A stretch of DNA of 45,240 nt from Desulfurobacteriaceae bacterium (lineage in GTDB: Bacteria > Aquificota > Aquificia > Desulfurobacteriales > Desulfurobacteriaceae), in NCBI GenBank assembly GCA_027063785.1, contig JAMORC010000010.1:1-45240 (forward strand). The letters run 5' to 3'. The notes beneath the pieces are model-generated. The model saw only the letters and a program-made list of their open reading frames with translations. It made no database searches and was not told where the DNA came from. Position numbers and translations under genes: made by a program. Shown one piece after another: positions 17,202 to 45,240 of this stretch. The stretch's first letter is position 1; the number at the start of each line of letters is the position of its first letter.

Positions 17202-17442
17202 TAGGAAGAAGCAGTTCGTTTTAGATGGTGTGGGACTGTCGAGTTCCGGCAGGGATTTGCGTAAGAGTTCTTTGAAGCTCGATTTCTGTCCCGGAGCTTT
17301 TTCAAAAACGGTAGGGGAGGATCATTTGCGTGTTGTCAATGTTAGGAAGAATAAGCGTTATAAGAGCTTCCCGGCTTCCGTTTGGTTGCTGAATAAGATG
17401 CCGATGGGATGCTGTTTGATTGAGGTGGAGAAGTGCCGGTAA
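17164..17442 (+). pseudogene. C-terminal remnant of a RAMP gene (Csm5-like)
   Basis: A 92-codon frame starts arbitrarily at an ATG inside the cas10 remnant and ends at TAA 17442, overlapping the cas6 GTG by 10 nt. The end, KRYKSFPASVWLLNKMPMGCC and then LIEVE, resembles the C-terminal P-x-S/T-x-x-x-x-x-x-x-x-P-x-G-x-x-x-x-E of Csm5-like RAMPs, and FSKTVG resembles their S-K-T-V segment. All upstream RAMP sequence, and presumably csm2-csm4, is gone. Its placement directly before cas6, tail intact, fits an internal deletion from cas10 to the last RAMP gene. Assignment to Csm5 rather than another RAMP is tentative. Confidence 0.55.
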
Positions 17443-18182
17443 AAGTCCTTCTCAAGTTTTGCTTGGACGGAGAAGTTAAAGCAAAGGAGTTAACTCCTAA
17501 GGTAGTTCACGGTCTCTTTTTTTCGCTTTTTAGCAACAGAGAAATTGGAGAAAAGTTTCACTCGTCGAGCGTTAAACCGTTTTCTCTCTTCTTTCCGCTT
17601 TACTTTCGCTCCCCTGAAAGGGTGGTTAAAAGCTTTTCTCTGGAAGTTAATGTTTTAAACAATGCGCTCTACCCCTTGTTTGCAGGAGAACTTCTGGGCA
17701 GGATTAGAGAGGGGGTTGAGTTCAAGGTAGGGAAAGTCAAACTTTATCTGAAAGATTTTAGAGGCCTCGAAGTTGCTACTTATGAGAAATTCCTTGAGGA
17801 AAAGGGGGAGAGGGACTATGTTTTGGATTTCTTAACTCCCACTGCTTTTAAAAAGGGGAATTACGATTATCCTCTTCCCGATCCTTATCTGCTGGTTAAA
17901 AACCTGATCGGTCGCTGGAACGTCTGGTCTCCTTTTAAATTTTCCCAAGAAGAACTGAAGTCCCTTTGTCACTCCCTCGTATTGTCGGGTTGCTGGATAA
18001 AGACGAAGAAGGTGGAAATCTCTCCCGAGGCAAAATTTACCGGTTTTTCGGGAAGGGTTTACTTCTACTGTTCGGATGTTGAATTTCGGGAAAAAGTGGC
18101 AGCTCTTTTGAAATTTGCCGAGTTTGCCGGTGTCGGCAGGAAGACGACAATGGGTTTCGGGAAAGTGAAATGTTTAAGGTAA
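17433..18182 (+). CDS. cas6: Cas6 CRISPR RNA endoribonuclease
   Basis: Processes the pre-crRNA at the repeat. The 249-residue protein has two RAMP/ferredoxin-like halves. The C-terminus carries the glycine-rich signature: FTGFSGRVYFYC, then FAEFAGVGRKTTMGFGKVK. The N-terminal region has the usual LTPKVVHGLFFSLF segment, with H26 a candidate catalytic His. The start is GTG at 17433 and overlaps the RAMP remnant. It is followed by the CARF nuclease with a 13-nt overlap. It could still mature transcripts from both arrays in the window even though the local effector complex is gone. Confidence 0.92.
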   Translation: MPVKVLLKFCLDGEVKAKELTPKVVHGLFFSLFSNREIGEKFHSSSVKPFSLFFPLYFRSPERVVKSFSLEVNVLNNALYPLFAGELLGRIREGVEFKVGKVKLYLKDFRGLEVATYEKFLEEKGERDYVLDFLTPTAFKKGNYDYPLPDPYLLVKNLIGRWNVWSPFKFSQEELKSLCHSLVLSGCWIKTKKVEISPEAKFTGFSGRVYFYCSDVEFREKVAALLKFAEFAGVGRKTTMGFGKVKCLR

Positions 18183-19252
18183 TGGTGTCTCCGGTCTCTA
18201 CGCAGGTTTTCCCGGTCGTGGTTACTGCTTTGACTGTAAAACCTGAAAAGGTCGTTCTTCTTACTACTCCGAGGGTTGACGTCTTTGCCGGTCTGATAGA
18301 AAGGGCTTTGAAATTTTCCGGAATCGGGATTGAAAAGCGGTATATTGACCCGTACTCTTTCGATTCGATTTCCTCGACAGTTTCGGATCTTGAAAACCCT
18401 TTCTGCTTGCTAAACTGCGGTACGAAATTTACGGCAATCAGCCTTTTCAGAATTTTCGGTGTTAAGAGAACTTGCTACTACCTGCCCGACGGAAGGGTTG
18501 TCGATTTTGACGGAAATGAAATTGTAAAAGTATCAGATAAGCTCGTTGATGTTGATCTTCACTCTCAGATGTACGGCTTTGAAATTGTTGAAGAGAGGGA
18601 AGACGTTGAGAGAATAAGGTTTAGAGAAGAGCTTACTCGCTATATTGCAAGAAGGCCTATTTTGTTGGCTATTCTTGTAAAGCTTTTCCAGCGGGGTTTT
18701 GTCCGTTCTCTTCCCGGTGATTTTGCGGAGTTGGCGAAGAAAAAAGGAGTTTTGGCTTATAAAGGTGGGAGATTTATAGCCCTTGATAGGGAATATCTGG
18801 GAGGAAAGTGGCTTGAGGAATTTGTTTTCCTGGAGCTTTTGGACAAGGGATTTTACGATGTAAGCATAGGGGTAAAGGTGAAGTGGTATGGAGAGGATGT
18901 AATAAACGAGATAGATGTAATAGCGACCAAGAATAACCGGCTTTATATCTTTTCCTGCAAGACCGGGAAACACTTAAGGGACATATTAAAGCATCTCTAT
19001 GAATTGGAGGAGCTGACCGAGAGAATCGGAGGTGATTTCGGAAGGAGTTTCCTTGTAATACCGGAAAACCTTTATAGTCCTTTTCCGCCGAATGAGAAAG
19101 AATTGCGAAATACTTACGGTTCAAACTACTTTAAGTTCTACAAAAGAGAGCTGAGCAAGCACAAGAGTTTTAGAAACTTATCAAAAAGAGCCAAACTTCT
19201 GGGTATAGAAATATTAACTCCGAAGGTTCTGGAGGGGAAGAAATGGCTTTAA
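18170..19252 (+). CDS. Card1/Can2-like CARF-PD-(D/E)XK nuclease (DUF1887)
   Basis: A 360-residue ancillary type III effector. The N-terminal CARF domain (about 1-145) shows VSPVSTQVFPVVV, KVVLLTT and LLNCGTKFTAIS, the ligand-binding G-T-K loop. A linker/winged region follows. The C-terminal nuclease domain (about 210-310) shows WLEEFVFLELL, NEIDVIATKNN and YIFSCKTG, the E / E-x-D / x-C-K-T motifs of Card1 and Can2. These enzymes bind cyclic tetra-adenylate and cut single-stranded DNA/RNA or nick DNA. The residue two before the active-site Lys is Ser rather than Glu; I think other DUF1887 proteins share this, but I cannot check. It overlaps the next gene by 10 nt. Confidence 0.88.
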   Translation: MFKVMVSPVSTQVFPVVVTALTVKPEKVVLLTTPRVDVFAGLIERALKFSGIGIEKRYIDPYSFDSISSTVSDLENPFCLLNCGTKFTAISLFRIFGVKRTCYYLPDGRVVDFDGNEIVKVSDKLVDVDLHSQMYGFEIVEEREDVERIRFREELTRYIARRPILLAILVKLFQRGFVRSLPGDFAELAKKKGVLAYKGGRFIALDREYLGGKWLEEFVFLELLDKGFYDVSIGVKVKWYGEDVINEIDVIATKNNRLYIFSCKTGKHLRDILKHLYELEELTERIGGDFGRSFLVIPENLYSPFPPNEKELRNTYGSNYFKFYKRELSKHKSFRNLSKRAKLLGIEILTPKVLEGKKWL

Positions 19253-20094
19253 AAACAGGATTTAAGCAGGCATTTATATCTCAAGTAGGCTTTTTCTTTA
19301 AAGATAAAGTTGCCGGTTTTTCGACTTTTTTAATAATCCTAGCCCTTTCGGTTGTTACCGGATGGTTTCCCGATGGTCTTGGTGTTGCGGTTTTTGATGG
19401 GGAGTGGAAAAGAGGATTGATAATGATGTTGGTTTCTTGTTTTATAGTTGCATTCTTTGTTTATGTCGGTGTGAAATATTACAGCGACCTTGAGTTCGAT
19501 GTTGAAGAGAAGAAACCCGACAAGAAAAAAGCTTTGCTTTTCTTTTTAAGTAATATCGTGATAAGTAAAACCTGCGATCTTGAAAGCTTTTTGGAAGATT
19601 TTCTGAAGGAAAATGAGGGCAAAAGTTTAAGTGAAATTAAATCTCGCATTAATGAATCTCCCGTGTCTCGCTGGAGGATGGCTTTGGAAGCCGTAGAGTA
19701 TCACTTGCCGGAACTTAAAAAGTTGGTGCTTTTAGTTTCAAGAGAGTCTTTTCCTCAAGTTCCGTACTTTGAGAAGTTTTTCAAGTCTGTCCTGCCGCAG
19801 GCTTCTGAAGTTGAAGTGAGGATTTTTAAGGTTGATGATTTTGATGATGTTGAAAAAGTGTTTGATGCACTGAAAACTGCTTATCGAGAGCTTTATTCCG
19901 AAAGGTTAAAGGATAGAGACGTTATCATTGATGTTACGGGTGGCAGAAAGCCGGTTTCGATTGCAGGTGCTTTAATGACCGTTGCTCATCCCAATAGGGA
20001 ATTTCAATATGTTTCTTACCGTAAGGAGAACGGGAAGGATGTTTATGAAGTTAAATCTTACGATGTGAGGTTGATAAGCCGTGATAACGTTTAA
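19243..20094 (+). CDS. Two-TM CARF-like membrane protein (candidate type III membrane effector)
   Basis: A 283-residue protein with two transmembrane helices near the N-terminus (about 24-41, FSTFLIILALSVVTGWF, and 57-80, LIMMLVSCFIVAFFVYVG) and a large cytosolic domain. The latter begins KKALLFFLSN and contains LKKLVLLVSRESF and VIIDVTGGRKPVSIAGAL, the D-x-T-G-G-x-K/R loop of CARF-type cyclic-oligonucleotide sensors. No nuclease motif is seen. Known parallels are Cam1 and other TM-CARF proteins that perturb the membrane on cyclic oligoadenylate binding. This one differs by having two helices. It sits between Card1 and csx3 with overlaps of 10 and 14 nt, so all are made together. Effector function is inferred. 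Confidence 0.72.
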   Translation: MALKTGFKQAFISQVGFFFKDKVAGFSTFLIILALSVVTGWFPDGLGVAVFDGEWKRGLIMMLVSCFIVAFFVYVGVKYYSDLEFDVEEKKPDKKKALLFFLSNIVISKTCDLESFLEDFLKENEGKSLSEIKSRINESPVSRWRMALEAVEYHLPELKKLVLLVSRESFPQVPYFEKFFKSVLPQASEVEVRIFKVDDFDDVEKVFDALKTAYRELYSERLKDRDVIIDVTGGRKPVSIAGALMTVAHPNREFQYVSYRKENGKDVYEVKSYDVRLISRDNV

Positions 20095-20383
20095 TGTTTC
20101 TGAAGTTTTAGGTGGAGAAGCTCTTTTGGTTGAATTTGAAATAGAAGGTGGCGTCACTACACCGAAGGAAGCCTTTAGCGTTGAACTGCCTCCCGTTCCT
20201 TACGGAAAGGGAGTAATTTTAAGCGGTAGAGGTCCTATCTGGCTTTACGGCAGACTGCTGCACCACTTTCATCCTGCAAAGTGGGTGGCCGTTTTCGACC
20301 CCAGATTGGGGGCAGTTGTTGTTCAGTCACATACCAGAGAAGTCAAGGAGGGAGATGTAATAGAGATTGGAGAGGGGGAATGA
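20081..20383 (+). CDS. csx3: Csx3/Crn3 ring nuclease
   Basis: This 100-residue protein matches Csx3 along its whole length: VILSGRGPIWLYGRLLHH, then FHPAKWVAVFDPRLGAVVV and SHTREVKEGDVIEI. Csx3 (Crn3) degrades cyclic tetra-adenylate and so shuts down type III signalling. It starts at GTG 20081, inside the 3' end of the membrane CARF gene, and overlaps the cas1 start (ATGA). Its presence beside two CARF proteins implies cA4 as their shared ligand, which is inference from the known specificity of the family. Confidence 0.92.
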   Translation: MITFNVSEVLGGEALLVEFEIEGGVTTPKEAFSVELPPVPYGKGVILSGRGPIWLYGRLLHHFHPAKWVAVFDPRLGAVVVQSHTREVKEGDVIEIGEGE

Positions 20384-21318
20384 AGGGGTATCTTTTTGTA
20401 ACGATTCCCGGAGCGAGTATTTCGAGGAAAGGAAATGTTCTAATAGTAGAAACAAAAGAAAGGAAAGTGCAGGTACCGGTAGGAGTTATAAAGCACGTCT
20501 TTCTTTTCGGTATGGTTAACATAACAGTCCCGGCTATAAGGCTTTTATCCTCTCGCGGTAAGTTTGTTTTTCTCCTGAACCGTTACGGCAGGCTCGTGAG
20601 CGTTGTTTATCCGGAGTTTTTCGGCAGTGATAATAACATCAGAATGAATCAGTACTTGGCTTTTAATGACGAGGAAAGGAAGGTAGGAATAACAAAGGAA
20701 CTCCTTACCAGAAAACTTGAGGTTGCTAAACTTGTTATCTACAACCTATATGTTTCCAGAAATTTAAGACCGGAAAACCTGAACGAGTGGGCAGAAGGAG
20801 TAAAAGCTTCTATCCTCTCTGCCGATAGCCTCCAGTCTCTTCTGGGAGTTGATGGCAGTATAAGCAAGTACCTTTACGGAAAGTTTTCGTCTTTTAACGA
20901 AAGTCCTTTTTACTTTGAGAGGAGGGAATATTATCCGCCGCCGGATCCTGTCAATGCTTTGCTCAGCTTGAGTTTTTCGATCTTCTATTCGATCATGCAT
21001 CCTCTGGTGTTGTCTTTTGGTTTTGACCCTTATCTCGGTTTTTTTCACGTAAGAAGGGGCAGACACGCTGCTCTCTGTTCTGATGTTATGGAGATAGTGA
21101 GGCCGCGTATTGCTGAGTTTGTATTTAATGCTTTAAATGATGAGTTTTTTACGCCGGAAGATTTTTCTCACGATAAGGGCGGTGTTTTTCTTAAATCCGA
21201 AGCTCTTAAGTCTTTCGTAAGGCTGTTTTCTGATGTGGTAATTCACGGGAAGAGAGAGCTTTTTATATCAGAGATGTCGGGATTTCTTAACTGGCTCAAA
21301 GAAGAGGTTAAAAAGTGA
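20380..21318 (+). CDS. cas1: Cas1 integrase, with Asp at the usual first Glu
   Basis: A 312-residue Cas1. ATG 20380 is the start; a longer in-frame extension to 20281 lies wholly inside csx3 and is not protein-like. Family features are an N-terminal beta domain (LFVTIPGASISRKGN-type), FVFLLNRYGR, DPVNALLSLSFSIFYSIM, GFDPYLGFFHVRRGRHAALCSDVMEIVRP (split by blocks) with the metal-binding His and Asp. At the position usually occupied by the catalytic Glu (G-x-E-G-x-x-x-x-x-Y) it reads LLGVDGSISKYLYGKF, an Asp. With cas2 it should insert spacers into the arrays; the substitution may lower activity or simply be tolerated. Confidence 0.93.
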   Translation: MKGYLFVTIPGASISRKGNVLIVETKERKVQVPVGVIKHVFLFGMVNITVPAIRLLSSRGKFVFLLNRYGRLVSVVYPEFFGSDNNIRMNQYLAFNDEERKVGITKELLTRKLEVAKLVIYNLYVSRNLRPENLNEWAEGVKASILSADSLQSLLGVDGSISKYLYGKFSSFNESPFYFERREYYPPPDPVNALLSLSFSIFYSIMHPLVLSFGFDPYLGFFHVRRGRHAALCSDVMEIVRPRIAEFVFNALNDEFFTPEDFSHDKGGVFLKSEALKSFVRLFSDVVIHGKRELFISEMSGFLNWLKEEVKK

Positions 21319-21587
21319 GGTATTTAGTTGCTTATGATATTTCGGACGACGCCGTAAGGAATAAGCTCGTTAAGCTTTTAAATGATTTCGGCAGAAGAGT
21401 TCAGTTCAGCTGTTTTGAGATAGAGATAACCCGAACTGACCTTGAAGAGTTGATAAACAGGGTAAACTATTTAATAAATAGCGAAACAGATAAAGTATTT
21501 TTCTTCCCGATTAGTGAATATGCTGCGCCATTTGTAAAGAAGTTGGGAAGAAAAGACGGAGAAGATAACTCCAATATGGTGTTATAA
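21315..21587 (+). CDS. cas2: Cas2, first of two
   Basis: A 90-residue ferredoxin-fold protein starting at GTG 21315 and overlapping the cas1 stop (GTGA). It has YLVAYDISDDAVRNKLVKLL at the N-terminus (the conserved Y-D-I), FGRRVQFSCFEIEIT and TDKVFFFPIS, the normal Cas2 layout. It would form the dimeric bridge of the Cas1-Cas2 integrase. A second, distinct Cas2 begins 3 bp after its stop. Confidence 0.92.
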   Translation: MRYLVAYDISDDAVRNKLVKLLNDFGRRVQFSCFEIEITRTDLEELINRVNYLINSETDKVFFFPISEYAAPFVKKLGRKDGEDNSNMVL

Positions 21588-21589
21588 GT

Positions 21590-21907
21590 ATGCCTAAGAG
21601 GATTAAAAGGTTTGTAGTTGCTTATGATATTTGCGTAAAGGATGATTCTTATATTGAAAAAAGAAGCTCGGTGAAGAGAAGAACGAAGGTAATGAGAGTC
21701 CTTTACGACTACGGTATCAGAACTCAGCTCAGTGTTTTTGAAGTGATGCTTGAAGGAAAGCAGTACGACCTTTTAATCGAAAGGTTTGAAAAGATTTTGA
21801 GAGAAGAGACAGATAAGATTTACATTTATCCGATAGATTCGGGGAGTGAGAGAAAAATAGTTCGTTTGGGGAAAGAAGCCGACGTCCTTGGAGACATTTT
21901 TCTGTGA
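21590..21907 (+). CDS. cas2: Second Cas2, divergent paralogue
   Basis: A 105-residue Cas2-family protein: KRFVVAYDICVKDDSYIEKR, then VMRVLYDYGIRTQLSVFEVML and TDKIYIYPIDSG. Compared with the first Cas2 it has a longer N-terminal loop after the Y-D-I and a longer C-terminus ending DVLGDIFL. It keeps the core strands, so it should be folded. Either it partners Cas1 alternatively or it forms a heterodimer with its neighbour. It is the last cas gene before the array 1 leader. Confidence 0.88.
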   Translation: MPKRIKRFVVAYDICVKDDSYIEKRSSVKRRTKVMRVLYDYGIRTQLSVFEVMLEGKQYDLLIERFEKILREETDKIYIYPIDSGSERKIVRLGKEADVLGDIFL

Positions 21908-22123
21908 TATAATAGGAGTGGAAAGATCCTTGAAAGTTGAATAAGGAAAGCGTTAAATTCCTCTAATTATTAGTTTATTCTAAAAACCGGATGTATTACC
22001 CTTTGTGTTTCAATGCTTTAAAGGGTGTTTGGCGAAAACCTTTGTTGGACAATGAGTTTTAGAAGATTATAAAACACCTTCGTATTTTAAGCCCTTTGAA
22101 ATCAATCTTTAAAAATCGGTGCT
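21908..22123 (+). promoter_or_regulatory. Array 1 leader
   Basis: This 216-bp AT-rich gap between cas2 and the first repeat contains TTAGTTTATTCTAAAA (21970-21985), almost identical to 44161-44176 before array 2. It also has a hairpin, ACCCTTT / AAAGGGT (about 21998-22026), and GTTTTA...TAAAAC (about 22054-22073). The leader motif lies 153 bp before the first repeat here but only 67 bp before it in array 2. I see no gene in it. Its place next to cas2 and the perfect leader-side repeats make this the acquisition end. Confidence 0.6.
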
Positions 22124-22548
22124 GTTGAAATGCCCGAAAAAGTGGACGGGATTGCGACTCAGCTTCACCCTCAACGACTGCAACGTCTTTGTTGATAGTT
22201 GAAATGCCCGAAAAAGTGGACGGGATTGCGACACTTGGATAGCATTTCAACAATGTTTTTGTTCTCACAACTTTTTGTTGAAATGCCCGAAAAAGTGGAC
22301 GGGATTGCGACAAGTTAGAAAGAAACCTATATTTCCCTCTAAACCTAAGAATCTTGTTGAAATGCCCGAAAAAGTGGACGGGATTGCGACAAGCCAAGGG
22401 ATCATTAATTCTGGAATATCTTTGAGTTCTTCTTGTTGAAATGCCCGAAAAAGTGGACGGGATTGCGACATTTTAATAAGGTCTGAAAGTATACGTCTGA
22501 GTTGCTTATCATAGTTGAAATGCCCGAAAAAGCGGACGGGATTGCAGC
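22124..22548 (+). CRISPR. CRISPR array 1: six 35-bp repeats
   Basis: Repeats begin at 22124, 22198, 22277, 22356, 22435 and 22514. The unit starts GTTGAAATGCCCG, has a short CCCG/CGGG stem, and ends GGGATTGCGAC, so the crRNA handle would be AUUGCGAC, as in some Thermus type III repeats. Spacers are 39, 44, 44, 44 and 44 bp. The first five repeats are identical. The last (22514-22548) has GCGG for GTGG and ends GCAGC instead of GCGAC, marking the trailer end. The array lies downstream of, and on the same strand as, the cas genes. Confidence 0.97.
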
Positions 22549-22968
22549 CTTAAGCCAGAAGGGTTTTGCAAATAAAGAGTGGACGGATAAGCTCGGAGAA
22601 GACGGAATACTGAAATCCGTCGGCTTCCGCCGGTCCAATTCTTCCTATCTTGAAACCGTATTCAACACCTTAGATAAAATCAAATACCTCGAATACGTTG
22701 TGATAGACGACGACAGGACAACGCCGATATGCAGGAGGCTCGGCGGAACAAAACTCCCCCGACCCTTCTGTGCAACCTACACTCCCCCAACCACTTCAAC
22801 TGCCGCTCAACTGTCCGTGCAATATTCAAAAGCTTCCGTGAGGCAAAAACCGCAAGAAAGCGAAAGCCCGAAGACGTTTAGCCTGTCTCCAAAAGGTTTA
22901 ACGCAAGCCCGCTGGATAGCTGGTGGAAGTTAACCGACTCTCTGGTAAAAAGAGCTGTCAATTCATAG
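22549..22968 (+). pseudogene. Decayed phage MuF-like (SPP1 gp7/Mu F) head morphogenesis gene, copy 1
   Basis: Directly after the terminal repeat the sequence reads as a disrupted minor head protein: LSQKGFANKEWTDKLGEDGI, then SVGFRRSN and YLETVF (a 6-bp deletion relative to copy 2 removes the following R-T-N). Next comes VVIDDDRTTPICRRLGGTKL, then a frameshift, then LHSPNHFNCRSTVRAIF, a premature TAG after KRKPEDV, and finally RFNASPLDSWWKLTDSLVKR to TAG 22966-22968. The D-x-R-T-x-x-x-C and P-x-H-x-N-C-R motifs are diagnostic for the Mu F/gp7 family. It has at least two frameshifts and cannot make the full protein. Confidence 0.8.
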
Positions 22969-22969
22969 G

Positions 22970-23535
22970 ATTCACGGAAAAATTCTTGAGAAGGCTAAAA
23001 GACTTTGTCAGAGTAACTTTGCCGACGAATGCCCGGAATGGAGGGAAGTAAAAAAGTTGATTGAAAAGTGGAAGTTACAACAGGAAATTAAAGAACGATT
23101 CTTAAAAAGACTGGAATCCTTTGAATGGAACAGTAAGAAACAGATTAAAGCAAACTTTCCAAAGCTTTGGGAAACAGAAGAAAAATACAGATGGCATGTC
23201 GGCAAGAGGATTAGGGACGGGCATGTTTCTTCGGAAGAAGAATACATAAAGAGGATTTTTGAAACGCTCTCAGAGCATACCTCTGTGGTTATCTATGAGG
23301 CTCCAAAGTGGAAAAGTGAAGAACATTGGCATAGAATTTTTATAGCAGGAAGTGCAGTTGGATTGTTATTGTTAGCGAAAAAGGGTCAATTTTGAGTGCA
23401 TTCAAGGTTGAAGAAGGCAAGTTTTCTAAATCGCTCAAAGGGTTAAAGGATGCAGGCTACAAAGCTTACAGAGGAAAAGAAAATACGCAAATTAAAGAGA
23501 TTGCTAAAAGAATACTACGCAGGCTTGATAGATAG
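22970..23535 (+). pseudogene. Frameshifted C-terminal domain of the phage protein, possible PBECR-type nuclease
   Basis: The frame opened at about 22955 continues LEKAKRLCQSNFADECPEWR through 23057-23395 (from a TTG, 112 codons), with WHVGKRIRDGHVSSEEEYIK and VVIYEAPKWKSEEHWHRIF. It stops after LLLLAKKGQF in an A5 run. Shifting one base there restores GSILSAFKVEEGKFSKSLKG up to a stop at 23533-23535. The layout (H-x-x-x-R, E-E-Y, then a strand pair and S-A-F) resembles phage nuclease domains of the barnase-EndoU-ColicinE5/D-RelE-like group fused to MuF proteins. The toxin identity is inference; the fusion to the MuF remnant is suggested by uninterrupted protein-like sequence across 22960. Confidence 0.5.
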
Positions 23536-23776
23536 TGCTAACGGTTTTGAAACGGATGTGTTTGAAATTATTGTTTGGAGCACCTATAGAGAGGATATAG
23601 GTAAGTATGCTCATCTCCTTTCCGAAGAAGAGAAACTAAAAGTTGTGGAAGCAGACGAAATAGCCCAAAGGCTTGCTAAAGAAAAGAAAGGAACGGAAGC
23701 AGGTTTAGGATTTGAACAGATTGTAAAGGTAATCAAGCAATATCCTATTTTTAGGACTGCTAAAACTATTACCTAG
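23450..23776 (+). CDS. Unknown small protein; candidate immunity protein of the MuF toxin
   Basis: A 108-residue, helix-rich, acidic-basic protein: RLLKEYYAGLIDSANGFETD, then VFEIIVWSTYREDIGKYAHL and EEEKLKVVEADEIAQRLAKE. No family is recognised. ATG 23450 follows a TAA by 3 bp. It overlaps the restored 3' end of the putative nuclease domain by 86 nt in another frame. It is intact although its neighbour is broken. The position just after a toxin-like domain is where immunity genes of polymorphic and MuF toxins sit, which is the only basis for the guess. Confidence 0.5.
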   Translation: MQATKLTEEKKIRKLKRLLKEYYAGLIDSANGFETDVFEIIVWSTYREDIGKYAHLLSEEEKLKVVEADEIAQRLAKEKKGTEAGLGFEQIVKVIKQYPIFRTAKTIT

Positions 23777-44086: not shown

Positions 44087-44228
44087 TTGATGGAATTTGC
44101 TAAAATTGAAAAAACAGGTCTTTTAAAACTGAATACGGAATGCCTGTCTTTCGGGTACTTTTAGTCTATTCTAAAACTCCGATTAAAGAAGCCTTGTGTA
44201 ACAACGGCTTGAGAGCTGTTTGCCCCGA
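44087..44228 (+). promoter_or_regulatory. Array 2 leader
   Basis: A 142-bp AT-rich gap between the deacetylase stop and the first repeat. It contains TTAGTCTATTCTAAAA (44161-44176), matching the array 1 leader motif with one mismatch, 67 bp before the first repeat. I see no cas gene or other gene here. Array 2 probably depends on the distant cas1-cas2 genes for new spacers. Confidence 0.55.
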
Positions 44229-44891
44229 CTTGAAATGCCCGAAAAAGTGGACGGGATTGCGACTAATTGAGCTTTGCGACTTCTTCCGAAATAGTCCCTT
44301 GTCCCTTGAAATGCCCGAAAAAGTGGACGGGATTGCGACTCTTCTTCCTCTTCCTCCTCTTCTTCCTCGTCAAATTCCTCCTCTTGAAATGCCCGAAAAA
44401 GTGGACGGGATTGCGACTAAATCCTTATGAGATCATTAAGAATTCTACGAAGTTGTTTAGCTTGAAATGCCCGAAAAAGTGGACGGGATTGCGACTCTTC
44501 TTCCTCTTCCTCCTCTTCTTCCTCGTCAAATTCCTCCTCTTGAAATGCCCGAAAAAGTGGACGGGATTGCGACTACTCTACCCTGAGCGCAGGGCGTCTG
44601 CTGACTGTGAAACATACTCTTGAAATGCCCGAAAAAGTGGACGGGATTGCGACAGGAGGGAGAAGATGGAGTTTCAGTCTCTTCCTCTTCTACCTCTTCT
44701 TGAAATGCCCGAAAAAGTGGACGGGATTGCGACCCGGCAGAACAACCCACCCCAGTAGGGATAGGGGTGGTAACGCCCATCTTGAAATGCCCGAAAAAGC
44801 GGACGGGATTGCGACACTTCAGCTCGTCACCCCTCTGTTTCCAGTAGTCCCCCAGACTTGAAATGCCCGGAAAAGCGGACGGGATTGCAGC
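44229..44891 (+). CRISPR. CRISPR array 2: nine 35-bp repeats
   Basis: Repeats begin at 44229, 44305, 44383, 44461, 44539, 44619, 44699, 44781 and 44857. They equal the array 1 repeat except that the first base is C not G. Spacers are 41, 43, 43, 43, 45, 45, 47 and 41 bp. Spacers 2 (44340-44382) and 4 (44496-44538) are identical, a pyrimidine-rich sequence. The eighth repeat has GCGG for GTGG. The ninth (44857-44891) also has CCCGG for CCCGA and ends GCAGC, like the terminal repeat of array 1. Confidence 0.97.
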
Positions 44892-45240
44892 CTTAAGCCA
44901 GAAGGGTTTTACAAATAAAGAGTGGACGGATAAGCTCGGAGAAGACGGAATACTGAAATCCGTCGGCTTTCGCCAGTCCAATCCTTCCTATCTTGAAACC
45001 GTATTCAGAACGAACACCTTAGATAAAATCAAATACCTCAAATACGTTGCGATAGACGACAACGCCGATATGCAGGGGGCTCGACGGAGCAAAACTCTCC
45101 CGACCCTTCTGTGCAACCTACACTCCCCTAACCACTTCAACTGCCGTTCAATATTCAGAAGCTCCCGTGAGGCAAAAACCGCAGGAAAGCGAAAACCAAA
45201 GGGCATTCCGCCACTTCCCGAAGGATTTAACGCAAGCCCG
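44892..45240 (+). pseudogene. Decayed phage MuF-like head morphogenesis gene, copy 2 (runs off window)
   Basis: Immediately after the terminal repeat: LSQKGFTNKEWTDKLGEDGI, SVGFRQSN, then YLETVFRTNTLDK with the R-T-N typical of this family intact. A deletion relative to copy 1 (about 8 bp, near 45060) removes the D-R-T part and shifts the frame, giving NADMQGARRSKTLPTLLCNL, then HSPNHFNCRSIFRSSREAKT and GIPPLPEGFNASP. It is thus broken at different points from copy 1. The end lies beyond 45240. Confidence 0.8.

Follow-up and report, generated by a model that had tools for sequence, protein, structure and literature searches.

Fragments of a phage MuF region with putative immunity genes joined to CRISPR array tails in the Desulfurobacteriaceae

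Introduction

What might explain why two CRISPR arrays on one contig of a Desulfurobacteriaceae bacterium end in the same altered repeat, and why a broken piece of the same phage MuF gene follows that repeat in both? The window analyzed here is the entire contig C10, 45240 bp long, from a draft genome of 1.57 Mb in which one 35-nt repeat is common to four arrays: A1 and A2 in the window, A3 on contig C34 and A4 on contig C53. In temperate phages, MuF genes are known to encode polymorphic toxins (PMC5576092). As in those systems, the source gene here encodes a MuF minor-capsid protein of phages whose C-terminal part varies, and a small gene follows it; unlike in those systems, the modules described below are 5'-truncated at array ends, with a decayed core and an open small gene. 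The word CRISPR is absent from the text of that paper (PMC5576092).

Results

Two arrays in the window share a broken MuF unit

The window arrays show direct repeats, regular unique spacers, a conserved leader and cas genes close by, the latter a type III-associated module (Table 1). The A2 leader lacks its repeat-proximal part, and with about 85 nt missing there A2 is probably no longer active in acquisition. A low-complexity A2 spacer made of CTTCTTCCTC-like repeats occurs twice, from 44340 and from 44496 (window 44340-44538). In A3 the first two spacers are identical (L042 3385-3501), which suggests a recent spacer-repeat duplication.

The DNA 3' of the A1 and A2 terminal repeats is the same MuF-derived sequence, with 89.3% identity over 431 aligned columns, as the sequence-only reading of this locus had proposed from the same altered repeat and the sequence after it. 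BLASTN of A1 against A2, with A2 extended into contig C3, gives 83% over 496 columns with gaps (E 1e-152). The differing indels described in that reading are also present: A1 alone lacks AGAACG (6 nt), and A2 alone lacks the 8-nt D-D-R-T stretch, together with a further 12 nt. Its view that a common trailer unit was duplicated and then decayed separately agrees with the single junction and the private lesions, but the unit was not "intact or nearly so" at that time: compared with four intact MuF genes, both copies have deletions of 45, 6 and 1 nt in common and both have lost the 5' part of MuF, which shows that the duplicated unit was already a broken MuF gene. The comparison supports one common unit that was duplicated, or copied from array to array, with each copy then gaining its private lesions. 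Duplication of an intact MuF trailer followed by decay of each copy, and nothing more general, would account for the common junction and the private indels; the common deletions, and the comparable junctions at A3 and across five other genomes, make it scarcely credible as the whole explanation. The repeat-MuF junction was also thought to be ancestral to both arrays. It is indeed common to A1 and A2, but A3, which has the same leader type and a GCGG repeat, is joined to different, reversed phage DNA, and past about 400 bp the A1 and A2 copies diverge into different toxin tails, different immunity-type genes and different downstream genes.

The GCGG and GCAGC changes in the terminal repeats were considered as proof of a common MuF trailer and rejected: GCGG is present in the terminal repeats of all four arrays of the source genome (4/4), including A3 and A4 with their different trailers, and an array in another genus (G008, L086) has the GCAGC repeat end although no MuF sequence adjoins it. 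According to a review (PMC8047081), 3'-end changes of leader-distal repeats are common in CRISPR arrays generally and the trailer end is stable; A1-A4 resemble this description in both respects, whereas the passages of the review that were consulted mention neither captured genes nor kilobase-long spacers. We also considered the repeat as a native part of MuF, and rejected this too, because intact MuF genes have no repeat at that place.

The A2 copy reaches the end of the window. The last 127 bases of C10 are identical to the end of contig C3. Contigs that are neighbours usually overlap in this way, and the A2 copy very probably runs on into C3, where intact toxin-like and immunity-like ORFs follow (Table 1); the immunity-like ORF is linked to A2 solely through this overlap.

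Table 1. Features of the window and of the C3 continuation of A2, with the array tails joined to DNA of the MuF region
Feature	Location	Strand	Description
cas module adjoining A1	17433..21907	+	Cas6, CARF-PDDEXK nuclease (Card1-like), CARF-TM protein, Csx3, Cas1, Cas2
A1 leader	21970..22123	+	79% identity to A3 leader, 154 nt up to first repeat
CRISPR array A1	22124..22548	+	Six repeats (pattern scan; 0 expected by chance)
A1 terminal repeat	22514..22548	+	GCGG and GCAGC changes
A1 fragment, probably captured	22549..22965	+	MuF core pseudogene; three deletions common with A2
A1 toxin part of MuF (predicted)	22966..23520	+	Closest to C28 prophage copy, 84% DNA identity; frame shift near end
A1 putative immunity gene	23450..23776	+	Intact 108-aa ORF directly 3' of toxin; weak similarity to immunity protein of phage L127, E 6e-4
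A2 leader remnant	44151..44222	+	Matches distal part of A3 leader, 78% over 72 nt
CRISPR array A2	44229..44891	+	Nine repeats of GTTGAAATGCCCGAAAAAGTGGACGGGATTGCGAC type, first base C; last two with GCGG (pattern scan; 0 expected in shuffles)
A2 terminal (leader-distal) repeat	44857-44891	+	CTTGAAATGCCCGGAAAAGCGGACGGGATTGCAGC; GCGG and GCAGC changes
A2 fragment, probably captured	44892..45240	+	MuF core pseudogene from about codon 75; 45-, 8-, 6-, 12- and 1-nt deletions
A2 tail in C3, toxin-like ORF	L044 2476-3063		Intact; PBECR3-like, below cut-off
A2 tail in C3, immunity-like ORF	L044 2111-2464		Intact, 117 aa; then peroxiredoxin
Tails i-ii	A1, A2		Terminal repeat, then MuF-derived DNA
Tail iii	A3		Terminal repeat, then reversed DNA: protease start back through immunity gene, toxin and deleted MuF core
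Tail iv	G008		Different repeat, then reversed decayed protease, immunity gene, complete MuF
Tail v	G016		Repeat, 320 bp, repeat, 1629 bp MuF-toxin-immunity-protease, degenerate repeat
Tail vi	G012		Repeat, 573 bp, degenerate repeat, 1236 bp MuF-toxin-immunity, degenerate repeat
Tail vii	G006:C36		Terminal repeat, then portal from codon 270
Tail viii	G006:C25		Repeat, 522 bp, repeat, 364 bp, repeat, at most 95 nt, open immunity ORF
Tail ix	G013:C23		Array tail with open immunity ORF

Intact relatives of the fragments are found in phages: L127 (a 42.9-kb viral contig), L128 and L129, plus the prophage on contig C28 of the source genome. The gene order of L127 is large terminase, portal, MuF with a variable tail, small immunity-type gene, protease and capsid, and its MuF protein matches Phage_Mu_F (1.3e-22) and TIGR01641 (4.2e-19). 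The Phage_Mu_F profile gives E 0.08 for the A1 fragment, below the cut-off, and no match for A2; both nonetheless align to intact MuF. Among the toxin tails that of A2 resembles PBECR3 (E 0.0013, below the curated cut-off) and the others match nothing, and comparison of the immunity protein fold with the PDB gave no significant match. The MuF gene of the C28 prophage (L041) is interrupted by an intein-like insert with HFN/C...N/C boundaries, which is absent from the A1, A2, G012 and G016 copies. A genome-contig search for distant MuF relatives with arrays returned remote gut relatives only, one of them with an array about 4 kb away. The phages themselves might have carried or seeded the arrays, either by bearing a mini-array or because a leader-repeat unit had entered a MuF cassette, and the multiple arrays with common leaders in single genomes of this family would fit such an origin. 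However, the stretches examined of L127-L129 and of the C28 prophage have no array or clear repeat near MuF, and the array fragments begin at different points, which makes a phage origin of the arrays very improbable.

Nine array tails are joined to the MuF region of phages

We searched 22 genomes of the family for MuF, portal, protease, capsid and immunity genes and read their surroundings. At least nine array tails, with three repeat types and in several genera of the Desulfurobacteriaceae, are joined to the MuF phage region (Table 1); the search was directed at genes of the MuF region and would miss tails with other phage parts. The starting points of the fragments differ: codon 270 of the portal gene, MuF codons of about 57, 75 and 170, or a reversed protease gene. 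Where both ends are known the fragments measure 0.3-1.6 kb; they start at repeats, in three arrays they also end at repeats, and they are always leader-distal, the R3-type conserved leaders of G006 and G012 lying at the end opposite to the inserts. No far-end repeats were found for A1, A2, A3 or G008. Spacers are uniformly short inside A1 and A2, but not at the tails of G006:C25, G012 and G016, with their inserts of 320-1629 bp. The A3, G008 and G016 fragments face the other way, so transcription from the array leader is no general explanation.

The other arrays of R1 type have no giant downstream inserts, with the exception of one in G014 that measures 388 bp; G005 has a gap of 3995 bp, which seems to separate two arrays. 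The G014 insert (G014:C53, L204, minus strand) lies between R1-type repeats and contains a decayed ORF without a family match. The 320- and 364-bp inserts between repeats of G016 (L079 4802-5121) and G006:C25 (21745-22108, L184) are homologous to each other and conserved on both strands, with a small membrane ORF one way and a 40-aa ORF the other way; no native source was found for them.

The joints lie at the edges of repeats

At 12 of the 15 fragment ends, native homology reaches to within 0-12 nt of a repeat; the alignments score 73-270, far above the maxima of 43-52 for shuffled sequences. The ends without a significant DNA-level junction alignment are those of G008 and G013:C23 and one end in G012. 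In G006:C36 homology to the portal gene begins at the base right after the repeat, in G006:C25 homology to a HEPN gene ends exactly at a repeat, and several inserts are directly bounded by a repeat at either end, with no intervening sequence. The degenerate repeats that bound some inserts score 15-28, compared with shuffle maxima of 11 and with scores no higher than 13 across about 41 kb of DNA from phages. Three repeat types, differing breakpoints, both orientations and several genera speak for independent origins of the joints, although one array has the same host neighbourhood in G006 and in G012 (a gene next to ndk), so that their captures of gene A, described below, may not be independent.

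Could such joints arise by ordinary decay of prophages or islands beside arrays, with deletions running up to a repeat and A1 and A2 related by local duplication? MuF remnants are common in the family, those of G011, G015 and G013:C211 lie away from arrays, and the A3 and G008 fragments are near tRNA-like sequence, as a prophage site would be. Decay of this kind would nevertheless have to produce nine tails on three repeat types with offsets of 0-12 nt and with repeats on both sides of several inserts, and we estimate chance proximity of this kind to be on the order of 1e-4 per fragment, from about ten arrays per 1.6 Mb. We consider this explanation improbable.

Precise joints at repeat edges are also what would be expected if homologous recombination between a spacer and its match in an infecting phage or a resident prophage had replaced the array tail with phage DNA, the spacer being the crossover site. 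The immunity genes would then be there without selection, only because their region is a hot spot for spacers or recombination, and the distal repeats, once displaced, would no longer be expressed and would degenerate, as the repeats R* of G012 and G016 have done. Against this, none of the 230 spacers (0/230) matches phage or element sequences at spacer length, and the joint in A1-A4 lies behind the original terminal repeat, with GCGG in all four, rather than at an internal spacer. It also leaves unexplained the intact immunity ORF at every locus and the truncation of the HEPN gene beside a complete gene A. Unselected replacement by recombination is thus an unlikely reading, if a less improbable one than decay.

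Putative immunity genes are open where neighbouring genes are broken

The putative immunity ORF is open at all seven array loci scored (7/7), and G013:C23 has an eighth open ORF. The MuF core is broken in five of the six fragments that include it (A1, A2, A3, G012 and G016). The toxin part is absent in G006:C25 and broken in A1 and G012, the G012 lesions being less certain since the repeats of G012 have single-base losses that are possibly sequencing errors. The toxin and immunity roles are predicted from position, conservation and family. Because the MuF copies are pseudogenes, dN/dS was computed on the immunity genes in place of a rebuilt MuF gene. Pairwise values are 0.04-0.34 (0.04 for A3-G012, 0.26 for G011-G015), with synonymous sites saturated in most pairs, G011-G015 alone being free of saturation, and with evolution inside phages included in the values.

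A second gene, here called gene A, is carried by the 522- and 573-bp inserts and by the DNA after the last G012 repeat. In its native setting gene A overlaps a HEPN gene (PF05168, 2.7e-7) by 4 nt, next to a lytic transglycosylase gene; in the arrays gene A is complete and the HEPN gene is cut after a few codons. The overlapping arrangement suggests that HEPN and gene A could be a toxin-antitoxin pair. Gene A was not recognized as an MNT-type antitoxin and matches no Pfam family; its structural model has a beta-alpha-beta-beta-alpha-beta fold without a significant match in the PDB, and it was not found in annotated phages. A GC-rich hairpin element with CGGTGGT...ACCACCG ends is found repeatedly, preceding gene A as well as close to another Mu-like prophage (L082 3610-3740, L209 1-100, L109, L105); an Rfam search with the element before gene A gave nothing above threshold.

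Outside the phage copies, portal, protease and capsid pieces are found at arrays only together with the MuF-immunity region. The tails of 19 other arrays adjoin mostly host genes. Three of these tails are followed, directly or within 0.5 kb, by toxin-antitoxin-type genes for AbiEii (PF08843) or MNT nucleotidyltransferase (PF01909): L199 (G011:C38), L197 (G004:C2) and L200 (G015:C5). The MuF copy of G013:C211 has no repeat on its 5' side. In G011:C6 and G015:C13, which represent one orthologous host locus, a decayed toxin tail accompanies an intact immunity gene with no array within 1.5 kb. Retention of an immunity gene therefore needs no array, and location at arrays is frequent, not exclusive. 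These two solitary immunity copies and the MuF-directed search are the main cautions for what follows.

Discussion

At a probability of roughly 0.5, our reading is that fragments of mobile elements entered these arrays at repeat boundaries and persist by supplying antidotes; the junctions are observed, and the capture route, the antidote function and selection for it are inferred. Element DNA would enter an array at the edge of a repeat. The adaptation machinery could have inserted it there as an over-long "spacer", or a spacer with a match in the element could have served for recombination. The inserts with repeats on two sides favour an integration-like event and the 0/230 spacer matches lend no support to recombination at a spacer, yet the data appear compatible with both integration and recombination. 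Once in place, a fragment might stay for two reasons: arrays are stable at their trailer end, and the immunity or antitoxin gene of the fragment would protect the cell from the toxin of the element. Such protection could be useful when neighbouring cells release phage, and equally if a toxin-bearing element within the cell is destroyed by CRISPR. For A1 and A2, a single captured unit may have been copied between the arrays after its MuF part had decayed.

The broader form of this proposal is more tentative. It would have CRISPR arrays acquire stretches of phage and mobile-element DNA as long as genes between their repeats, through the adaptation machinery or recombination at repeat edges, so that the array tail in the Desulfurobacteriaceae could be viewed as a cassette store of immunity and antitoxin genes against the toxins of elements attacked by CRISPR. 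This is reminiscent of integron cassette arrays, in which promoterless gene-sized units, some of them with antitoxins, lie between short recombination sites. Gene-sized units bounded by short sites are common to both, but the bounding sites here are CRISPR repeats, and neither attC sites nor an integron integrase were noticed in the regions read. In CreTA, an RNA antitoxin derived from degenerate repeats guides Cascade to repress an RNA toxin (PMC9458426). There too, degenerate CRISPR repeats adjoin a unit of toxin-antitoxin type, whereas the units described here are protein-coding and derived from phages or mobile elements, and no RNA resembling a crRNA between two degenerate repeats is evident in them.

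That selection for antidotes keeps the fragments is suggested by their content and, by analogy, by an experiment in which a chromosomal antitoxin relieved the cost of CRISPR immunity against an addictive plasmid, in E. coli with ccdA and an engineered CRISPR locus (PMC6478593). In both cases a genomic antitoxin would offset the cost of CRISPR against a toxin-bearing element. The experimental system was engineered; the MuF immunity genes and the neighbour of HEPN are proposed as its natural counterpart, and if this is correct, cells in nature would likewise be able to afford CRISPR immunity thanks to an antitoxin gene in their own chromosome. Our literature search, which had partial coverage, found no paper whose text connects CRISPR arrays with MuF toxins or with anti-addiction. 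Spacers are usually thought of as short guides; here, whole genes lie between or after repeats, antidote-like where they can be read. If the proposal holds, arrays would keep two memories, of whom to cut and of how to survive the poison left by the element that was cut, and capture of long DNA by Cas1-Cas2 becomes a testable question. As a further observation on array ends, a trailer like ggggggagtctgaggggggat...atccccc is common to many arrays of G004 and one array of G018 (L087-L098).
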